The translations under genes were made by a program, and so were the position numbers. Positions 2,850 to 9,234 of a stretch of DNA of 64,000 bases are shown here, piece after piece (within the stretch, counting starts at the first letter, position 1; each line of letters begins with the position of its first letter). The stretch spans positions 186,001 through 250,000 of the forward strand of contig NZ_QZXA01000004.1 of the NCBI RefSeq assembly GCF_003601985.1, written 5' to 3'. The DNA is from Mesorhizobium jarvisii (GTDB lineage Bacteria; Pseudomonadota; Alphaproteobacteria; Rhizobiales; Rhizobiaceae). The notes under the pieces are model-generated. The model saw only the letters and a program-made list of their open reading frames with translations. It was not told the DNA's origin and ran no database searches.

Positions 2850-3413
2850 ATGACAGGCGATGAAAATATTGGCGCAATGGTTGAAGGCGAGGACACTTCG
2901 CTTCTGATCGTCGATGACGACAAGCCGTTCCTCACGCGTCTCGCCCGCGCCATGGAAGCCAGGGGTTTTGTGGTCGAGACCGCCGAGAGCGTCGAGGAGG
3001 CGGTGGGCAAGGCCCGCGCAAATCCGCCGGCCTACGCCGTGGTCGACATGCGGCTCGGCGACGGCAACGGCCTTGATGTCGTCGCCGCCATCCGCGAGAA
3101 GCGCGAGGATTCCCGCACCATCATCCTGACCGGCTACGGCAACATCGCCACCGCGGTGACGGCGGTGAAGCTCGGCGCCGTCGATTATCTGTCGAAGCCT
3201 GCCGACGCCGACGACATCTTCGCCGCCCTCACCCGCACCTCCGGCGAGCGCGCCGCACCGCCGGAAAACCCGATGTCGGCCGACCGCGTGCGCTGGGAGC
3301 ATATCCAGCGCGTCTACGAAATGTGCGAGCGCAACGTTTCCGAAACAGCGCGCCGGCTCAACATGCACCGCCGCACGCTGCAGCGGATACTGGCCAAGCG
3401 CGCCCCGCGATGA
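2850..3413 (+). CDS. regA: Response regulator RegA/ActR/PrrA
   Basis: Partner of RegB; a DNA-binding regulator of redox- and acid-responsive genes. From ATG 2850 the protein has 187 residues, the normal size. The frame is open back to a TTG at 2772 overlapping regB, but that extension has no family resemblance. Receiver domain: acidic pocket VDDD (21-24), phospho-acceptor Asp66 (VVDMRLGDG), and a K in the YLSKPA motif. A short linker leads to the Fis-type helix-turn-helix at about residues 145-183 (NVSETARRLNMHRRTLQRIL), nearly invariant in this family. Probably one operon with regB. Confidence 0.96.
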   Translation: MTGDENIGAMVEGEDTSLLIVDDDKPFLTRLARAMEARGFVVETAESVEEAVGKARANPPAYAVVDMRLGDGNGLDVVAAIREKREDSRTIILTGYGNIATAVTAVKLGAVDYLSKPADADDIFAALTRTSGERAAPPENPMSADRVRWEHIQRVYEMCERNVSETARRLNMHRRTLQRILAKRAPR

Positions 3414-3553
3414 GACTGTTTGGAAATTCTACTCTGGCGGCCATCTGATGGCGTTTTCTGCGCTTCCGGTGCTCACGGACCCGAACGTCCGCTCCGCTCC
3501 GGTTCTCGAAACCACCACCATATGACTCGCCAGAGCGAATTTCGAAACAGTCT
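3412..3553 (+). repeat. Long imperfect palindromic intergenic element
   Basis: The ends are inverted copies: bases 3412-3429 (starting GAGACTGTTT) and 3536-3553 (ending AAACAGTCTC) match at 17 of 18 positions. An inner pair (CTCTGGCG and CGCCAGAG) continues the fold, so most of the 142 bp could form one branched hairpin. The left arm overlaps the last base of the regA stop codon, so the element may act as transcription end or mRNA stabiliser. It looks like one of the short mosaic palindromes scattered in rhizobial genomes. Confidence 0.6.
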
Positions 3554-4851: not shown

Positions 4852-5364
4852 CTACTCGCTCTCCCCCTCGAGTGCCGGCACCGACACGCCGGCCAGCTCC
4901 GCCGCCAGCAGCCGCGCCGCGCCGGCGCGCGCGATCCGCAGCATCAGTGCCTTGCGTGTTGCCGCCGCCATGCGGTGCTCCGGCGCCTCGCGCAGGATTT
5001 CGGCGCCATAGCCGTCGGAGAGGATGAAGCCGCACTCCTCCGGAAAGATCTCCGCCGGCACGCCGGGGTGGGTGGCGAAGAAGAAGCGGTCGGAGTGCAG
5101 CCGGTAGTCGGGCCATTTGCGGTCGACCCGGAAATCCTCGATCGAGGATTTGATTTCGATGATCCAGATGTCGCCCTGGCGGGTCAGCGCCACGAGGTCG
5201 GCGCGACGGCCGGTGGCCAGCGACAGTTCAGGCAGCACATGCGCGCCCATCGCCATGAGCAGCCGCTGCACGCCGCGCCGCACCAGCATGGCGCGTTCCG
5301 ACTGGCGACCGTCGATGAGGGGGTTGATTGCGATGGGGGAAATGATTGGCATGGCAGGCACCAT
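4852..5364 (-). CDS. mmcB: MmcB-family DNA repair protein
   Basis: A 170-residue protein resembling MmcB, which in Caulobacter belongs to the DNA-damage response and affects mitomycin C tolerance. The core carries a PD-(D/E)XK-nuclease-like signature: RRADLVAL followed by WIIEIKSS at about residues 52-74, then a conserved DYRLHSDRFFFATHPGVP segment. Met5 (start 5352) is an alternative start, and neither start has a clear ribosome site. The 5' end lies 30 bp from the left target-site duplication of the transposon, so the insertion may have cut into or replaced its promoter region. Confidence 0.8.
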   Translation of the reverse strand: MVPAMPIISPIAINPLIDGRQSERAMLVRRGVQRLLMAMGAHVLPELSLATGRRADLVALTRQGDIWIIEIKSSIEDFRVDRKWPDYRLHSDRFFFATHPGVPAEIFPEECGFILSDGYGAEILREAPEHRMAAATRKALMLRIARAGAARLLAAELAGVSVPALEGESE

Positions 5365-5401
5365 GCCAGATTTTGTTCACGGTTTGAACCCGCCTTGTGA
5401 T

Positions 5402-5425
5402 GGCGATTCTATGGTTGACAAACCC
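5402..5425 (+). repeat. Left terminal inverted repeat of the IS1595-family element
   Basis: The 24-bp end begins GGCGATT and ends TTGACAAACCC. It differs from the reverse complement of the right end at only two positions. The TTGACA at 5415-5420 is an inward-facing consensus -35 hexamer that may serve the 99-residue gene at 5480. Confidence 0.9.
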
Positions 5426-5479
5426 AATCTTTTGTAGGAATATTTTCCTGTAAATTCTACAAACAGAGAGTGAACCAAA

Positions 5480-5779
5480 ATGATGATGGGCACTTTGAGT
5501 TGGATTAAGGGTGAGTGGGCTGCGAGTGGGAGAGCAGAAGTGGTTCTGCACTCAGACGATGATGCGGCTTTGATTCACGTCTACCCACGCGGTTTGAATC
5601 GCGCTGTTCCATTTCTTCTATCCCTTACGCCGGAAATAGAAGTCGCGCTTTACCGCTGGTTGGGTGAGCGCATTCGTAGACGTAAGAAGGCCAGAGAGCA
5701 GCGATACGTGGAAATGATGAGCCCCGTGTTTGACGCAATGTGGAAAGCTCACGCAACAGCGCACTTGAAGCCGCAATAA
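5480..5779 (+). CDS. Hypothetical passenger protein of the IS1595-family element (99 aa)
   Basis: I do not recognise this protein. It begins with three Met codons (MMMGTLSWIKGEW) and has an acidic-hydrophobic N-terminal half with predicted beta strands (AEVVLHSDDDAALIHVYP). A strongly basic helix around residues 62-75 (GERIRRRKKAREQRY) could bind nucleic acid. A purine-rich GAGAGTG lies 8 bp upstream, and a -35-like TTGACA lies in the left inverted repeat. A 9-bp stem hairpin with a short T tract follows 26 bp after the stop. Codon use resembles a real gene, and it is the only plus-strand gene in the element. Confidence 0.6.
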   Translation: MMMGTLSWIKGEWAASGRAEVVLHSDDDAALIHVYPRGLNRAVPFLLSLTPEIEVALYRWLGERIRRRKKAREQRYVEMMSPVFDAMWKAHATAHLKPQ

Positions 5780-5804
5780 TCGATTACAGGTGCTGTAGCG
5801 AGCC

Positions 5805-5834
5805 GATGGGCGGAATCGGCATCCGCCCATCTTT
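5805..5834 (+). terminator. Probable terminator of the 99-aa passenger gene
   Basis: GATGGGCGG (5805-5813) and CCGCCCATC (5823-5831) form a perfect 9-bp stem with a 9-base loop, followed by TTTC. It lies 26 bp after the stop codon at 5779. Confidence 0.55.
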
Positions 5835-5903
5835 CGTCACGAAATTTTGAGACGCTATTTTTGCGTCGAACGATCGAAACAGACCTCACGCTAGAGCTAA
5901 GAT

Positions 5904-5931
5904 CGACATACGTAAAAAATTTCGTATGTCG
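5904..5931. promoter_or_regulatory. 9-bp inverted repeat, possible operator or hairpin
   Basis: CGACATACG (5904-5912) and CGTATGTCG (5923-5931) are perfect inverted copies separated by ten A/T bases. They sit just upstream of the structured region at 5993-6112, so could be an operator for that transcript. No protein partner is assigned. Confidence 0.35.
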
Positions 5932-5992
5932 TTAACTCTTGCAAAGTTGGAACTGTGATAGTACCTAGACGTTGTAAATGCAGCGCTTCGAG

Positions 5993-6112
5993 GTGAGAAC
6001 GGCCTTCTCACGCACCTACCGGGTCGGTAGGTTAGTAGCCGAAAGGTGAAGAGATCCAGGGAGTTGGCATCCTGGCACGCGCTCCGAAAGCCCCGCACTC
6101 GCGGGGTTTTTT
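5993..6112 (+). ncRNA. Candidate structured RNA ending in an intrinsic terminator
   Basis: Three stems follow each other with no open frame: GTGAGAA/TTCTCAC (5993-5999 with 6005-6011), ACCTACC/GGTAGGT (6014-6020 with 6026-6032) and CCAGG/CCTGG (6056-6060 with 6071-6075). They are followed by a classical intrinsic terminator, CCCCGC-ACTC-GCGGGG (6091-6106) and six T (6107-6112). No gene lies upstream for the terminator to serve except the 5480 gene, which has its own hairpin. A short independent RNA is therefore the simplest reading; its 5' end is unknown. It faces the 3' end of the nuclease-like gene, so could alternatively be an antisense or tail RNA. Confidence 0.45.
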
Positions 6113-6116
6113 GGTT

Positions 6117-6500
6117 TTATGCGATGATTAAATGCCCCTTCCTAATTCGGCGCTCAAGCGTATCCCTCTTCAACGTATATGTACTCGTGGCTGCATAAAG
6201 CCCATCAGCATTGGGGATAAGAAGCACGGCGACAAGAACGATGATGCCCCCAGTGTCCCGCACGAGTTCAAACCCCTCGGGGTGGTGAGGGGACTGACCG
6301 ACATGCGTAGGGGTTGCCACCGCCTCTGGCAGATTGACTAAACAGTCCGCGTAGTCGGCTGCATGGCGAGCCATGGCGTGCTTCTGAGCCCTGATGGAGA
6401 ACCCCACATCACCATCAGCCAACACAATGCCGCCGGCCTTCAGGAGGTCGGTACGCAAAGGCCCCAGGATGATGGGCGATAGCTTGACGGGCTTCGTCAC
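6117..6500 (-). CDS. Probable BECR-fold nuclease (PBECR-like), passenger of the transposon
   Basis: 127 residues from a GTG start. The pattern fits the phage barnase/EndoU/colicin/RelE-like (BECR) nucleases: an early KH-x3-RH motif (KHAMARHAADY), a middle PxxV and HH segment, a hydrophobic strand (GGIIVLVAVLLIP), and an ending with STYTLKRDTLERRIRKGHLI, a basic C-terminal strand typical of these domains. Such proteins act as RNA-cleaving toxins or phage/mobile-element effectors. The assignment is by eye and weak at family level; function is inferred. It is last in a minus-strand cluster, 65 bp after the 59-residue gene, compatible with a toxin-antitoxin arrangement in which the small gene comes first. 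Confidence 0.5.
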   Translation of the reverse strand: MTKPVKLSPIILGPLRTDLLKAGGIVLADGDVGFSIRAQKHAMARHAADYADCLVNLPEAVATPTHVGQSPHHPEGFELVRDTGGIIVLVAVLLIPNADGLYAATSTYTLKRDTLERRIRKGHLIIA

Positions 6501-6565
6501 GAGATAGCTTCTTTTCCAGAGGGTCAGATCGATCCAAAGATATATAGGGTCGAAAGGTTGTTTTC

Positions 6566-6745
6566 TTATTCCGAACCGTGCTTCTTTTGCCTTACTAGTT
6601 CCTTTATTTTCTCGGCCGTTAATTTCGGCGCTTTTGCAATCTTGTTCATGGCGGCCTCGAAAGCCGCATCTGATTGATCGGTTTTCAGTTCGCGTGCCGC
6701 CTCACGGAATTTGTCGATTTGCGGCTTATCCTTTGGCCTAGACAT
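6566..6745 (-). CDS. Small charged protein (59 aa), possible antitoxin or partner
   Basis: From ATG 6745 the product is MSRPKDKPQIDKFREAARE and a further 40 residues, almost entirely charged and helical, ending in KELVRQKKHGSE. Small proteins of this look (a KFREAARELxxD motif, then an AAMNKIAKAPK segment) are widespread in alphaproteobacteria and have no firm function. An in-frame upstream ATG at 6799 would add 18 atypical residues and is rejected. A perfect CTCCGATTCGGAG palindrome (6757-6769) overlaps the probable Shine-Dalgarno sequence. Position upstream of a nuclease-like gene suggests an antitoxin, but this is inference from context. Confidence 0.6.
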   Translation of the reverse strand: MSRPKDKPQIDKFREAARELKTDQSDAAFEAAMNKIAKAPKLTAEKIKELVRQKKHGSE

Positions 6746-6756
6746 AGGAATATAGA

Positions 6757-6769
6757 CTCCGATTCGGAG
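6757..6769. promoter_or_regulatory. Perfect palindrome overlapping the ribosome site of the 59-aa gene
   Basis: CTCCGATTCGGAG has 6-bp arms around one base. On the minus strand it contains the GGAG that would serve as Shine-Dalgarno for ATG 6745. It could be an operator for autoregulation or a small RNA hairpin that hides the ribosome site. Confidence 0.4.
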
Positions 6770-6785
6770 GTGTGTTACAGCAAAT

Positions 6786-6809
6786 AGGGCGGGCCTCATG
6801 ACCCGCCCT
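6786..6809 (-). terminator. GC-rich hairpin between passenger genes (possible terminator or attenuator)
   Basis: AGGGCGGG (6786-6793) and CCCGCCCT (6802-6809) make a perfect 8-bp stem with an 8-base loop. On the minus strand it follows the 183-residue gene and the 12-codon frame, and precedes the 59-residue gene. The following bases (ATTTGC) lack a real T run, so termination may be partial. Confidence 0.45.
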
Positions 6810-6835
6810 GCCGTCTAAGGCATTTGCCGCAGCCC

Positions 6836-6874
6836 TCAAGCTACGGCGTCAGCTATTCTAACGGCTTGCCACAT
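6836..6874 (-). CDS. Possible 12-codon leader peptide
   Basis: A minus-strand ATG at 6874 is preceded by AAGGAG with 6-base spacing, the best ribosome site in the transposon. The frame encodes MWQAVRIADAVA and stops. The Shine-Dalgarno overlaps the TAA stop of the upstream 183-residue gene, so translational coupling is plausible. A GC-rich hairpin (6786-6809) and the 59-residue gene follow, an arrangement reminiscent of attenuation. It may equally be a chance frame. Confidence 0.3.
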   Translation of the reverse strand: MWQAVRIADAVA

Positions 6875-6884
6875 GGGATACTCC

Positions 6885-7436
6885 TTAATCAAAGACCGTG
6901 CCGGTCGGGTTGGGAGATTGAACAGGACGGGAATCCTGTTCGGCGTCTGAGCCACCCTCGGGTGGCTCATTCTCGTTAAGGAACCCAGGTTCCTCTTTTT
7001 CAAGCCTAAAAGCCAATGCAACAAGCATGTCCTTGCGGGCAATCGTCCCTGATTTCTTCAGGTCGGTCAAAGCTGGGCTGATGGAAGACATTCGAACGTC
7101 TTTCCCTGTCTCCTTGGCGAGATAGTCCCTGATTTGATTTGCGGTTTGCCAAAGCCCTCGCGGTTGAGTTAGCGCCTCTATGATAAGGGCGTTCTTCGTT
7201 TTCGCCTTTTGCGGGATCGAGATACCCGACACCAAAGGCGTAACAATAGGACGCTCGCGCACTCGCGCAACGGGCTCCGCATGGTCCTCCGCCGTCTTCC
7301 AAAGCGATTCCCATCGCTGCGCAAGCTTCAGGAGCCCTTCTTCGATAAAAGCAAGTTCGCGGTCTTCCTGCGCGATCTGCCGGCGTCGGGCGCGAACGTC
7401 TTCAAGGCTGGGATTCGGTTGGGTCATAACGCCCAT
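6885..7436 (-). CDS. Hypothetical passenger protein with coiled-coil and winged-helix-like region (183 aa)
   Basis: I do not recognise a named family. The N-terminus (from MTQPNPSLEDVRARRRQ; Met4, start 7427, is the likelier initiator) is a charged amphipathic helix likely to form a coiled coil to about residue 50. Residues about 78-150 look like a winged helix: KTKNALIIEAL, TANQIRDYLAKETG, MSSISPALTDLKKSG, and a wing with IARKDMLVALAF. The acidic, proline-rich tail is probably disordered. It could be a DNA-binding regulator of the cargo or an accessory transposition factor. It is first of the minus-strand passenger genes. Confidence 0.6.
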   Translation of the reverse strand: MGVMTQPNPSLEDVRARRRQIAQEDRELAFIEEGLLKLAQRWESLWKTAEDHAEPVARVRERPIVTPLVSGISIPQKAKTKNALIIEALTQPRGLWQTANQIRDYLAKETGKDVRMSSISPALTDLKKSGTIARKDMLVALAFRLEKEEPGFLNENEPPEGGSDAEQDSRPVQSPNPTGTVFD

Positions 7437-7554
7437 TAGTCCGAGTCTTGCCCATAAGGCAAGCGGAATCGTAATCTCGCTTCTATCTGTCGGAACAAAC
7501 CATGCTCAAAACAGAAGGCAGCTTGGGGAAAACTCAATCGGCCAGGATTAAGCA

Positions 7555-7579
7555 CATAAGCATATCGTTATGGCTTATG
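7555..7579. repeat. Short hairpin downstream of the transposase gene
   Basis: CATAAGC and GCTTATG form a 7-bp stem in the 207-bp gap between the transposase 3' end and the 183-residue gene. A second 6-bp stem, CTTGCC/GGCAAG, lies at 7447-7463. Neither has a T tract. Nothing else is visible in this gap. Confidence 0.35.
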
Positions 7580-7643
7580 CCGTGCATTCCGCCATAGCGG
7601 CAACTCTAGCTGAACCGGCTTTCGGAAGTGCGTCCGCTTTTCG

Positions 7644-8597
7644 TCAAGCAGGTCTATGATAGGTGAGGCGCTTACCAGAGGCACCCCTCAAGGCGATGAA
7701 AGCGCGGGTGCCGTCATCAACGCCAAGTGCGATGCGGTTCGAATACCGGAAATCGAACTCGGCAAGGTAGCGGTGCAGATGGTGTTCGGCGCAATGCTGG
7801 TAAACGCCCTTCATGCCGCGCTTGAAGACCGAATAGAAGCCTTCCACGGTATTCGTGTGGACGGTCTTTCCGCCTTCGTAGCGAACGTATTCATCCTTGG
7901 AATGCGTGACGACATCGTGAGAGGCGAATTCCTGGCCGGCGCGGCGATAGATGCCGCTCTCGTCGGTCATCAAGGCGCTTTCCTTGGCGATGTTGGCGCG
8001 AACGATCGGCATGACGTTGCCCATGCGGGCGGTATCGACGTGGAAGGAACGGGCGCGGCCACCACGCTCGACAAGCGTAACGACCGTGTTCTTGTGTGCG
8101 CCACCGCCCGACTTAACCGGGGTGCCCTTCAAGCGACCGATATACGTCTCGTCAACTTCAACGGTCTTGCCATTGCCGCCAAGCGGGGAGAAGTCGCCAG
8201 ATGCCATTGCAAGGCGGATGCGGTGGCACAGGAACCACGCGGCCTCATAGGTGCATTCGAGTATGCGGTGCATCTGGTGGGCGCTAATGCCCTTCTTAGA
8301 GGCGCACATGAGGTGGATAGCCTGAAGCCACTTGGTCAGCGGCAAATGGCTTTCCTCGAAAATGGATCCCATGCGAACCGTGAACTGCGAACGGCAAGCG
8401 CTGCACTTGTACAGGCCATGACGCTCGACGCCGTGAGGGTTCTTCTTAGAGGGCTTGGTGCGAACGCCCTTCAGAGCGTAATGGCGATCAACGCTACCGC
8501 ACTTGGGGCAAACGGGACCGTTCGGCCAGAGAATGCCCTCGACATGCTCGAAAGCCTTGGCTTCGTCGTGGAATTCGGGGCGGGACAAGACGGACAT
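7644..8597 (-). CDS. IS1595-family transposase (ISXO2-like domain)
   Basis: Intact 317-residue transposase that moves the surrounding element. The N-terminal zinc ribbon has CPKC (35-38) and CSAC cysteine pairs. The catalytic DDE/N-type core follows: VEVDETYIG (first Asp), MTDESGIY (second Asp), then HTNTVEGFYSVFKRG, with the Asn-rich third motif of this family, ending in YLAEFDFRYSNR. The ribosome site AAGGAG sits 9 bp before the ATG. The promoter (-35 TTGACA within the right inverted repeat) is described separately. There are no frameshifts, so it may be active. Confidence 0.94.
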   Translation of the reverse strand: MSVLSRPEFHDEAKAFEHVEGILWPNGPVCPKCGSVDRHYALKGVRTKPSKKNPHGVERHGLYKCSACRSQFTVRMGSIFEESHLPLTKWLQAIHLMCASKKGISAHQMHRILECTYEAAWFLCHRIRLAMASGDFSPLGGNGKTVEVDETYIGRLKGTPVKSGGGAHKNTVVTLVERGGRARSFHVDTARMGNVMPIVRANIAKESALMTDESGIYRRAGQEFASHDVVTHSKDEYVRYEGGKTVHTNTVEGFYSVFKRGMKGVYQHCAEHHLHRYLAEFDFRYSNRIALGVDDGTRAFIALRGASGKRLTYHRPA

Positions 8598-8598
8598 G

Positions 8599-8646
8599 GC
8601 GATAACTCCTTGGAATCGTTATCGCTCATCGACTTGGGTTTGTCAA
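8599..8646 (-). promoter_or_regulatory. Transposase promoter with ribosome site in a hairpin loop
   Basis: On the minus strand, TTGACA (8641-8646, inside the right inverted repeat), a 17-bp spacer and GATAAC (8618-8623) make a good sigma-70 promoter. Directly downstream GCGATAAC and GTTATCGC (8618-8625 with 8599-8606) can pair, placing the AAGGAG ribosome site in the loop. This may be an operator or an mRNA fold limiting transposase synthesis. Confidence 0.55.
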
Positions 8647-8659
8647 CCAGATAATCGCC
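8636..8659 (-). repeat. Right terminal inverted repeat of the IS1595-family element
   Basis: 24 bp; its reverse complement begins GGCGATTATC and ends TTGACAAACCC, matching the left end at 22 of 24 bases. The right target duplication CTTGTGAT follows immediately at 8660-8667. Confidence 0.9.
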
Positions 8660-8667
8660 CTTGTGAT

Positions 8668-8690
8668 GGCGATTATATATTTGATAACCC
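8668..8690 (+). repeat. Third, diverged copy of the transposon end outside the element
   Basis: Immediately after the right target duplication is a 23-bp sequence beginning GGCGATTATA and ending TTGATAACCC. It resembles the left inverted repeat in the same orientation. No matching opposite end was found in the following 2 kb. It is either the remnant of a related element or the feature that attracted insertion. Confidence 0.65.
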
Positions 8691-8752
8691 GGCCTGGTCC
8701 TCGACGGGCCGGCATATCCCCGCTGACAATTAGGCTTAGCTAATATATCATG

Positions 8753-8770
8753 CCCCTCAAAAGCGAGGGG
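8753..8770 (+). promoter_or_regulatory. Hairpin sequestering the ribosome site of the secreted protein gene
   Basis: CCCCTC (8753-8758) and GAGGGG (8765-8770) are perfectly complementary, and GAGGGG is the Shine-Dalgarno sequence 4 bp before ATG 8775. A folded leader would block translation. Confidence 0.4.
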
Positions 8771-8774
8771 TATC

Positions 8775-9161
8775 ATGAAACAGCCACGGGGATGGATCGC
8801 GCTGGCATGGCTTCTCTTGGCCGGCGACGCAGATGCCCACGATTGGTATACCGGCAAAAAAGACCCGGTTCTGCGCTATGATTGCTGCGGCAACAAAGAT
8901 TGCCATCCGATAGACTCTCGCGCCGTGAGAGAGACCAAAGACGGCTATTATGTGCGCCTGCCCCGCCCTGCCTATCTCAATGAGCCACAAGAGCCGGAGT
9001 GGTTTATCCCCAGGGAACGCGCCCAAGTCTCCATTGATGACCGCTACCATCTCTGTGAGCGTTTAATGACGTTCTATCGAACGATCATTCCCCATACGAA
9101 GTTCGAGGCCTACTACAGATTCAGATGGACGTGTTTCTTCGTGCCTAAGGGCACGAGTTAA
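8775..9161 (+). CDS. Small secreted Cys-containing protein of unknown function (128 aa)
   Basis: It begins with a clear signal peptide (MKQPRGWIALAWLLLAGDADA, cleavage probably after ADA). The mature part starts HDWYTGKKDP and holds CCGNKDCHPID, a paired-cysteine motif that recurs in small periplasmic proteins of rhizobia and their phages. Two further cysteines near the C-terminus (HLCERL, WTCFF) could complete disulfides. No enzymatic motif is visible. It lies alone between the transposon and the noncoding hairpin element and is probably accessory. Confidence 0.65.
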   Translation: MKQPRGWIALAWLLLAGDADAHDWYTGKKDPVLRYDCCGNKDCHPIDSRAVRETKDGYYVRLPRPAYLNEPQEPEWFIPRERAQVSIDDRYHLCERLMTFYRTIIPHTKFEAYYRFRWTCFFVPKGTS

Positions 9162-9234
9162 ATTCGATCTAGCCCTACCCAGCCGTAGGGGAATGGCTAC
9201 CACTGTAGGACCGGTGCGGCTCCTGCGCCGGGAA

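Follow-up and report, generated by a model that had tools for sequence, protein, structure and literature searches.

A site-directed transposon beside mmcB carries a skipping-rope RNA and a putative PBECR3-type nuclease that may form a toxin-antitoxin module

The window analysed here, a 64,000-nt stretch of the Mesorhizobium jarvisii genome (contig NZ_QZXA01000004.1, positions 186,001 to 250,000), contains an element of 3258 bp next to mmcB, a DNA-repair gene (Table 1). The element is bounded by inverted ends of 26 nt that are 92% complementary, with 22 identical bases among the outermost 24, and by an 8-bp perfect direct repeat, CTTGTGAT. The end pattern has two matches in the window and none in 100 shuffles. 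A looser pattern (up to two mismatches) occurs three times in the whole 6.6-Mb genome, always at this locus, and the third occurrence is an older IS1595-type end directly after the right copy of CTTGTGAT, which goes unmentioned in a preliminary description of this DNA. The transposase frame matches PF12762 (8e-31) and PF12760 (7.4e-13), both above the cut-offs, and thus has the Zn-ribbon and ISXO2-like DDE transposase domains of the IS1595 family. Terminal inverted repeats of this type, 8-bp target duplications and passenger genes are further traits of that family, and the inverted repeats and 8-bp duplication are present here. We conclude that the unit is a real IS1595-family transposon with an intact transposase and cargo. 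The preliminary description had reported both ends, the repeat, the transposase, the length and the cargo frames, and all of these were found again; the frames measure 99, 127, 77 (or 59, counted from an internal ATG) and 183 aa. Its interpretation as a whole is partly supported.

Table 1 Features of the transposon and its insertion site (positions in the window).
Feature	Position	Strand	Basis
mmcB, insertion-site neighbour outside the element	4852..5364	-	PF06319 4.8e-72
GGTTTGAACC anchor	5381..5390	.	IS1595-type end begins 11 nt further on, in the window and elsewhere in the genus
Left copy of CTTGTGAT	5394..5401	.	8-bp direct repeat
Left terminal inverted repeat	5402..5427	+	end pattern, inverted-repeat match
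99-aa ORF, cargo or accessory gene	5480..5779	+	without family match above cut-off
Skipping-rope RNA (RF02924), proposed RNA antitoxin	5982..6083	+	45.5 bits, gathering 36.7, E 1e-8
Terminator-like hairpin between RNA and convergent nuclease gene	6086..6111	+	consensus scan
127-aa ORF facing the RNA, putative solo PBECR3-type RNase and proposed toxin	6117..6500	-	homologues match PF18812; BECR-like model
77-aa ORF (59 aa from inner ATG), backbone accessory protein of the transposon group	6566..6799	-	homologues adjoin IS1595 transposases
183-aa ORF, possible winged-helix DNA-binding protein	6885..7436	-	weak matches only
IS1595-family transposase, 317 aa	7644..8597	-	PF12762 and PF12760
Right terminal inverted repeat	8634..8659	-	end pattern, inverted-repeat match
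Right copy of CTTGTGAT	8660..8667	.	8-bp direct repeat
Older IS1595-type insertion end	8668..8690	+	stacked directly behind right repeat; same layout in sibling loci

The same position is occupied elsewhere in the genus. Of the 20 genomes opened beside mmcB, 11 have an IS1595-type end exactly 11 nt beyond GGTTTGAACC, and this arrangement, searched as a pattern with fixed spacing and up to three mismatches, is present in 75 of 146 genomes of the genus. Four siblings in other genomes share the site and the kind of ends, and their transposases are 81-93% identical, with other cargo. The five complete elements that we opened at mmcB differ in cargo. No two of them share an 8-bp repeat, and in every element the two copies of the repeat match perfectly. 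Both transposase orientations occur, and 65 distinct 8-mers precede the 75 ends. Stacked ends are also found in sibling loci and suggest that later insertions landed in front of older ones. One genome (G016) has a clean empty site that matches the insertion of a sibling (G020). These siblings and this empty site bear out the earlier claim that an intact transposon moves its cargo as a unit; the proposed check for an empty site came out clean for that sibling and not for the CTTGTGAT of the window, where the joined flanks can be aligned to one genome (G011) at 75% identity, yet a relic of an end is still present there. By computation, the position is recurrent; insertion at mmcB is site-directed. 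The occurrence of ends at the same base in 11 of the 20 genomes could also stem from one old insertion with its cargo swapped by recombination, which we regard as very unlikely, as the different yet perfect repeats, the variety of 8-mers, the two orientations, the clean empty site and the stacked ends all argue against it. Members of the transposase group also occur away from mmcB: in five elements located elsewhere (L024, L029, L030, L174 and L177), GGTTTGAACC was not seen within the 55 nt preceding the ends. We note that site-directed insertion had been missed in the preliminary description.

In the siblings, proteins of 206-280 aa stand in a place similar to that of the 183-aa frame, and one of them contains HARE-HTH. 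The 59-aa (or 77-aa) protein had been described as a partner of the nuclease. We rejected this assignment in favour of a backbone protein of the transposon, because proteins homologous to it adjoin complete or partial IS1595 transposases (L024, L025, L029, L030 and, by eye, the G020 sibling), and a tblastn search of the 47 RNA-pattern loci (L031-L077) gave no match at E ≤ 0.01.

What had been listed as a possible RNA is a skipping-rope RNA, a member of RF02924 by covariance-model score (45.5 bits, where the gathering score is 36.7). Neither the known family nor its pairing with the nuclease-like gene had been recognised. Matches to RsmY, CC0196, RNAI and isrK fell far below their gathering scores and were rejected as identities of the RNA. 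The Rfam model consists of a closing stem and three arms. An alignment of 40 skipping-rope RNAs contains covariation, and among the helices expected RNAalifold recovered only two, without the closing stem. A simple scan found no consensus promoter for the RNA, and the scan that placed the terminator-like hairpin behind it gave 7 sites where 3.4 were expected. The presence of skipping-rope RNA in phages has been noted (PMC8501573). The accessible parts of PMC7779021 and PMC8501573 give no partner or function, and the original family description may say more; our literature search found no paper linking this RNA to PBECR.

The convergent gene encodes a protein that itself has no Pfam match. Seven of eight aligned family members match PF18812 at E ≤ 1 (best 2.3e-22), and the window nuclease is 49-54% identical to three of these seven. 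Its structure model is BECR-like (pLDDT 92.3). The best rows of VIA-align were BECR-type RNases, among them colicin D tRNase, CdiA-CT, BrnT and RelE, with colicin E5 also among the best-aligned folds; every Z is below 8, and the colicin D alignment has a Z of 6.8 and an rmsd of 2.8 over 87. Foldseek against the PDB gave no match at E ≤ 0.001 (best row E 0.22), and its list was not used. H41 is invariant in all 20 alignment rows, H46 is found in at least 90%, and a Ser/Thr lies, by eye, two residues before a conserved Tyr; these are candidate catalytic residues. PADLOC had no model for the four PBECR proteins tested. A ToxN model is absent among the five Pfam families matched by the eight members, where PBECR3 and PBECR2 lead, and the nuclease is therefore not filed as a ToxIN-type member.

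The RNA and the nuclease gene also lie side by side outside this element. Searching from the protein, we found the RNA beside the gene in 17 of 17 evaluable solo PBECR loci, which span Pseudomonadota, Bacillota, Fusobacteriota and Spirochaetota. The queries, except PF18812, were proteins already known beside the RNA, so this count speaks for their clade and not for all PBECR domains. The protein search matched 27 distinct records; 14 of them were retrieved and used, and the 13 others are mostly additional records for the same species. Two loci score under the gathering score of 36.7 (L086, 34.0 bits; L096, 30.9 bits). A frame open from the contig edge (L082, no RNA) and a gene whose record ends at its stop codon (L100) were left out of the count, and a 604-aa frame (L088) was left out of the RNA scan. 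A 211-aa frame (L087) scores 22.5 bits with PF18812, where the cut-off is 30; it lacks an RNA at E ≤ 0.05 and counts against the reading. For large PBECR3 proteins, the RNA was found in none of six when roughly 1.5 kb was scanned on each side of the domain.

Searching from the RNA pattern, we obtained 32 genomic loci and dropped six below the gathering score (L035, L037, L039, L040, L055 and L058), and the protein lies within 2 kb in 21 of the 26 confirmed loci. Some loci are duplicate places (L054 and L007; L056 and L006) or close relatives (L052, L068, L076 and L077), and the L011 match, which has no conserved core and falls within a long coding frame, was treated as false. The protein is common to 29 of 31 paired loci. 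The remaining recurrent clusters consist of frames that overlap, of genes in synteny among close relatives and, in one mixed cluster, of proteins that include ABC ATPases. These searches show by computation that the adjacency of RNA and protein is conserved. The pair is also found in prophages and plasmids. An IS1595 transposase that is 29% identical lies near the pair in L046, where no matching ends were found, and a short transposase-like relic lies near it in L010, with only a weak end; we do not claim that the pair is generally IS1595-borne. Cargo genes without the ends had been named as evidence that would speak against the transposon. The RNA and the nuclease do occur in this way in many loci, which does not undo the transposon itself, and the pair is, to judge from where it is found, an independent module picked up by it.

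A single RNA is located 3' of the gene, and its strand varies: it is convergent with the gene in alphaproteobacteria and on the same strand in 9 of 11 Bacillota loci. Since the orientation differs between phyla, the RNA need not act as antisense, and cis-antisense control of the nuclease is not required. Same-strand RNAs start shortly behind the gene (in L091, the gene ends at 2851 and the RNA starts at 2870), as would be expected if the pair were merely a gene and a regulatory sRNA from its 3' region, with no toxin function. We find this hardly credible, as the RNA is outside the gene's transcript in the convergent alphaproteobacterial cases and occurs alone in phage genomes.

Orphan RNAs were found in 11 of 15 viral loci and 5 of 26 genomic loci, whereas no evaluable solo PBECR protein was found without the RNA. 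No protein remnants were detected in the 18 orphan loci scanned, a set that leaves out L074. The RNA occurs without the protein in phage Jenst of Brevibacillus laterosporus, and a plasmid of this species bears the complete pair. Several orphan loci have little DNA on one side of the RNA, including L066 (about 250 nt) and L074 (about 190 nt), and the same places are covered more fully by L089 and L064, respectively; the RNAs of L064 and L074 are identical. L062 and L063 are one place, on a contig that is no plain phage and has conjugation-type genes. The asymmetry between RNA and protein fits a protein-RNA toxin-antitoxin system, a function suggested by the sequences. The orphan phage RNAs could equally be read as RNAs with an independent job.

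Conserved adjacency and the presence of the pair in prophages and plasmids would also be expected if the RNA were a cofactor or guide of the RNase and the two together formed an active ribonucleoprotein directed against the RNA of phages or competitors, rather than a restrained toxin. We consider this unlikely. The variable stretch between the two conserved RNA cores resembles, by eye, hairpins of varying length and not a fixed-length guide, and the viral RNAs without protein (11 of 15 loci) would have nothing to guide unless the protein of the host is used. The RNA may instead be a substrate or tRNA-like decoy that soaks up a colicin-D-like tRNase, which would also be why phages keep it in their tRNA arrays. 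The presence of colicin D and colicin E5 among the best-aligned folds, the orphan RNAs inside tRNA arrays (L065, L070 and L090) and the closing stem with three arms in the Rfam model agree with such a decoy, but Rfam called no tRNA at the RNA position (E up to 10), and we give this reading little weight. We note that a decoy is a special form of antitoxin.

Among these readings, we favour a toxin-antitoxin module, and we think it probable, with some reserve, that a site-directed IS1595 transposon brings such a module, made of a skipping-rope RNA and a solo PBECR3-type RNase, to mmcB. The transposon would insert a short way downstream of mmcB, always at the same position, and deliver both parts. 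The RNase, whose nearest solved folds include colicin D tRNase, may be a toxin that cleaves an essential RNA. The RNA would fold, bind the RNase and hold it inactive, by analogy with type III toxin-antitoxin systems. When the module is lost or a phage shuts off host transcription, the RNA would disappear first and free the RNase. In this way the mobile element would be maintained in the population and phage growth halted. Where phages have the RNA alone, they may use it as an antidote. More tentatively, we propose that skipping-rope RNA is the dedicated antitoxin of a widespread solo PBECR clade, a class distinct from ToxIN; that many phages have it alone for counter-defence; and that in this genus a site-directed, stackable IS1595 transposon shuttles exchangeable nuclease or defence cassettes to one site at mmcB. 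The near-constant protein partner makes the function of skipping-rope RNA, an RNA known also from phages, directly testable. If the antitoxin reading is true, it would explain how solo BECR-type RNases can do without a protein antidote and why the RNA is retained in the tRNA clusters of some phages. At mmcB, a fixed landing place, exchangeable nuclease cassettes can be collected from one locus per genome of the genus.

Type III toxin-antitoxin systems such as ToxIN and CptIN, of which TenpIN is a further example, likewise have a small RNase adjoining a structured, pseudoknotted RNA, on plasmids and phages. Their RNA antitoxin is as a rule upstream of the toxin and co-transcribed with it, and the fold of ToxN differs from the PBECR/BECR-like RNase family. 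In the pair described here, the RNase is PBECR/BECR-like and the RNA belongs to an unrelated family; instead of a tandem-repeat RNA upstream in one operon, a single RNA lies 3' of the gene, on either strand and often the opposite one. Type III RNA antitoxins are described as tandem repeats (PMC8860590). Phage phiTE carries pseudo-ToxI, an antitoxin-like RNA (PMC3475682), and phages with an antitoxin-like RNA would thus be common to type III systems and the skipping-rope case. The toxic protein AbiF is neutralised by direct contact with RCd22 RNA, which is encoded in a prophage and is active in trans (PMC12373285); that system has an Abi_2 protein structurally linked to Cas13 and an unrelated RNA, whereas the skipping-rope pair is known from bioinformatics only. 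PBECR domains are found in phage polyvalent proteins, and solo versions in phages and mobile elements have been noted (Iyer et al. 2017, PMC5512222); these are the same kind of predicted RNase domain, and no RNA partner is mentioned in the accessible part of that paper. That our RNA and nuclease are neighbours in distantly related bacteria, on plasmids and in prophages suggests a toxin-antidote pair not recognised before. As for its carrier, the window element shares its transposase, ends and 8-bp repeats with IS1595 elements that carry passenger genes, and differs from them in its fixed site beside mmcB, its stacked ends and its exchanged nuclease-type cargo, which makes it Tn7-like in outcome only.

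The IS1595-family transposon that the preliminary description placed beside mmcB is borne out by its inverted ends, its 8-bp direct repeats and its transposase, and the unit spans 3258 bp. Its ends are not a chance occurrence; the end pattern is found twice in the window and not once in 100 shuffles. Elsewhere in the 6.6-Mb genome, the pattern recurs only at a third, older end directly after the right 8-bp repeat, which is a relic of an earlier IS1595-type insertion. The G+C content of the element is 54.4%, compared with 63.9% for the window outside 5394-9200. Downstream of the element lies a 128-aa gene without a match in a Pfam search; the genome has a 92% identical stretch on a second contig, and in another genome, G011, a relative stands right behind mmcB.

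Features of the element and its surroundings (window positions)
Feature	Position	Strand	Remark
Anchor GGTTTGAACC	5381-5390		just downstream of mmcB
8-bp direct repeats CTTGTGAT	5394-5401 and 8660-8667		
Inverted ends	5402-5427 and 8634-8659		
Skipping-rope RNA (RF02924)	5982-6083	+	
Terminator-like hairpin	6086-6111		directly after the RNA
127-aa gene	6117-6500	-	convergent with the skipping-rope RNA
IS1595 transposase	7644-8597	-	both family domains matched
Third, older end	8668-8690		
128-aa gene	8775-9161		

The possible RNA noted earlier in the cargo proved to be a skipping-rope RNA (45.5 bits; the gathering score is 36.7). When 40 RNAs, both paired with a PBECR gene and orphan, were aligned, RNAalifold predicted 9 base pairs in two helices. 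For seven of the nine, at least one sequence has changes on both sides that preserve the pair, so at least these two helices are under selection. Skipping-rope is cited as a pseudoknot example in the Rfam 14 paper (PMC7779021) and is counted among phage RNAs (PMC8501573); the passages of these two papers that mention it give no function.

The 127-aa protein had no match of its own in the Pfam search. Of 8 aligned members of its family, 7 matched PBECR3 (PF18812; E <= 1, best 2.3e-22), a domain of phage polyvalent proteins that is predicted to be an RNase (PMC5512222), and 7 matched phrog_29609, a phage family without a name. AlphaFold modelled the 127-aa protein with confidence (pLDDT 92.3, pTM 0.85). 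In VIA-align comparisons with PDB chains, the top matches were the colicin D tRNase domain (1tfo_A, Z 6.8, rmsd 2.8 over 87; 1v74_A, Z 6.6), followed by CdiA-CT (7m5f_C, 6.3) and BrnT (3u97, 6.3), with RelE and colicin E5 (3ao9_B, 4.6) lower. Every Z was below 8 and Foldseek alone gave no match at E <= 0.001, so the fold assignment rests on the VIA-align rows together with the homologues' Pfam matches. H41 is the same in all 20 aligned rows, and H46 in nearly all.

Small stand-alone PBECR3-type RNases (solo PBECRs) are found beside the RNA almost without exception. Protein searches of plasmids and phages returned 27 distinct records, 14 of which were fetched, and the RNA lies directly beside the gene in 13 (L026, L027, L028, L091-L099 and L101; the L096 RNA, at 30.9 bits, is under the gathering score). 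The fourteenth, L100, ends at the stop codon of the gene and was left out of the count. A PF18812 class survey of genomes added two loci with the RNA beside the gene, L085 (the same place as L007) and L086 (34.0 bits), and two further surveys, one of 398 genomes and one of 297, each gave a single genome besides our own, with the RNA present at both loci (L103 and L105). Altogether, the RNA adjoins the gene in 17 of 17 evaluable solo PBECR loci, a count that speaks for the clade of the queries, since, PF18812 apart, these were proteins whose place beside the RNA was already established. These loci span Sinorhizobium, Azospirillum and other alphaproteobacteria, Brevibacillus, Priestia, Sporosarcina, Macrococcus, Planococcus, Bacillus, a Streptococcus prophage, Fusobacterium and Treponema. 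Within ~1.5 kb on each side of the domain, none of six large PBECR3 frames (668-1995 aa) has the RNA, and none was found at L087, a weak 211-aa frame below the cut-off; L082 lies at a contig edge.

The search was also made from the RNA side. A DNA pattern of the RNA core matched genome contigs at 32 places, 26 of them confirmed by Rfam, and viral contigs at 15, all confirmed. A protein HMM match within 2 kb (E <= 1e-5) accompanies 21 of the 26 genome loci and 4 of the 15 viral loci. An RNA-family class survey gave matches in 6 of 385 genomes, 3 of them above the cut-off; the protein adjoins the RNA in G000, G165, G200 and G355, and the RNA at L008 has no protein beside it. A further match in this survey, L011, was judged false. 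Among 61 relatives, the RNA occurs only in our own genome and G006, both with the protein. The PBECR protein cluster is common to 29 of 31 paired loci (BLASTP, 1e-6). The other clusters in at least 3 of the 31 consist of frames that overlap the RNA or the gene, or of genes syntenic among close relatives, apart from one mixed cluster (8 loci) with ABC ATPases among its members. Orientation varies. In alphaproteobacteria the two are convergent, with the 3' end of the gene 14-46 nt beyond that of the RNA (exception, L053); in Brevibacillus and in one MAG each of Clostridia and Gemmatimonadetes the RNA follows the gene on the same strand. Among the plasmid and phage records, L091-L095, L097 and L101 have both on the same strand, and L096, L098 and L099 on opposite strands.

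The RNA occurs without the protein at 11 of 15 viral and 5 of 26 genome loci, plus L008, counts that include some duplicates. A tblastn search for protein remnants found none at 18 orphan loci, and two paired control loci gave 33 and 20 hits. Orphan RNAs stand inside tRNA arrays at L065 (7873-7972), L070 (1724-1817) and in Lactococcus phage 949 (L090, 1994-2072). Another orphan RNA is that of Brevibacillus phage Jenst (L066), whose host is B. laterosporus, with six tRNA genes upstream in the stretch examined; a complete RNA and PBECR pair is found on a B. laterosporus plasmid. In the viral contig L075 (7076-7510), a skipping-rope RNA immediately precedes a permuted tmRNA, and in L071 one lies near a DUF3800-VIII RNA. 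In L045, a genome contig that lacks a PBECR gene, two skipping-rope RNAs lie ~500 nt apart (2855-2933 and 3363-3441).

The mmcB site was opened in 20 genomes, our own included, and ends were scanned at any distance from the anchor. An IS1595-type end stands at exactly +11 in 11 of the 20, at +10 in G014 and at +1 in G015; the other 7 have none beside mmcB at the threshold used. Anchor, 11 nt and end pattern, searched with up to 3 mismatches and with the spacing fixed by the pattern itself, were found in 75 of the 146 genomes searched within the genus (76 places, the second in G002 lying elsewhere), and a backward-pattern control gave no match in the 146. The 8-mers ahead of the end comprise 65 distinct sequences among 75 strings, one per genome. 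The right end was also found in five of the opened genomes (our own, G003, G004, G012 and G020), whose elements have perfect 8-bp repeats of five different sequences. The sibling transposases are 81-93% identical to that of the window, and transposase orientation and cargo differ among the five complete elements, as does the DNA behind the end in the genomes opened. Where the window has the RNA and RNase pair, G012 carries an NYN-domain protein (L150 16197-16865; PF01936, 24.9 bits against a cut-off of 24.2; PADLOC HEC-09, 1.3e-24), G004 a DUF3800 protein (L158 895-1716), and G003 and G020 small proteins without clear family. The mmcB site is a collection site for nuclease-type cassettes. An empty site, proposed earlier as a check, was found in clean form for the G020 insertion (in G016); across the window's own insertion only G011 aligns, with an end relic kept.

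In both the window and G012, the newer right end is followed after 8 bp by an older one. Nine further genomes, counted by eye, have back-to-back ends with this spacing of 32 nt, and one has them at 33 nt; those in G1049, G1082 and G1103 lie away from the places found by the anchor-plus-11 pattern. Most simply, elements would have inserted repeatedly at a position that the mmcB side determines, the newest lying nearest mmcB. Five elements elsewhere (L024, L029, L030, L174 and L177) show no such anchor over the 55 nt ahead of their ends, so the preference is strong and not absolute, or only part of the group has it.

IS1595 elements with passenger genes are already known, as are PBECR domains, the skipping-rope RNA family and the logic of RNA antitoxins. 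As far as literature searches reach, two things are new, the near-constant pairing of solo PBECR RNases with skipping-rope RNA and a fixed landing site at which the cargo is exchangeable; no PBECR paper was found among those naming skipping-rope RNA. The pair is carried by plasmids, prophages and a transposon. We consider it rather probable that RNA and RNase form a protein-RNA toxin-antitoxin system, for which we infer toxicity, inhibition and a target RNA, because the RNase gene was not seen alone here, the RNA is often alone, the strand is variable and carriage is mobile. The predicted RNase would be the toxin and the skipping-rope RNA its antidote, working as in type III systems. This likeness would lie in the way of working, an RNA antidote to a protein toxin; neither the repeat-RNA operon layout nor membership of the ToxN family was found, so the pair is not filed as type III. 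The closest experimental precedent for the pair is AbiF with RCd22 (PMC12373285), and phiTE provides a precedent for antidote mimicry by a phage (PMC3475682).
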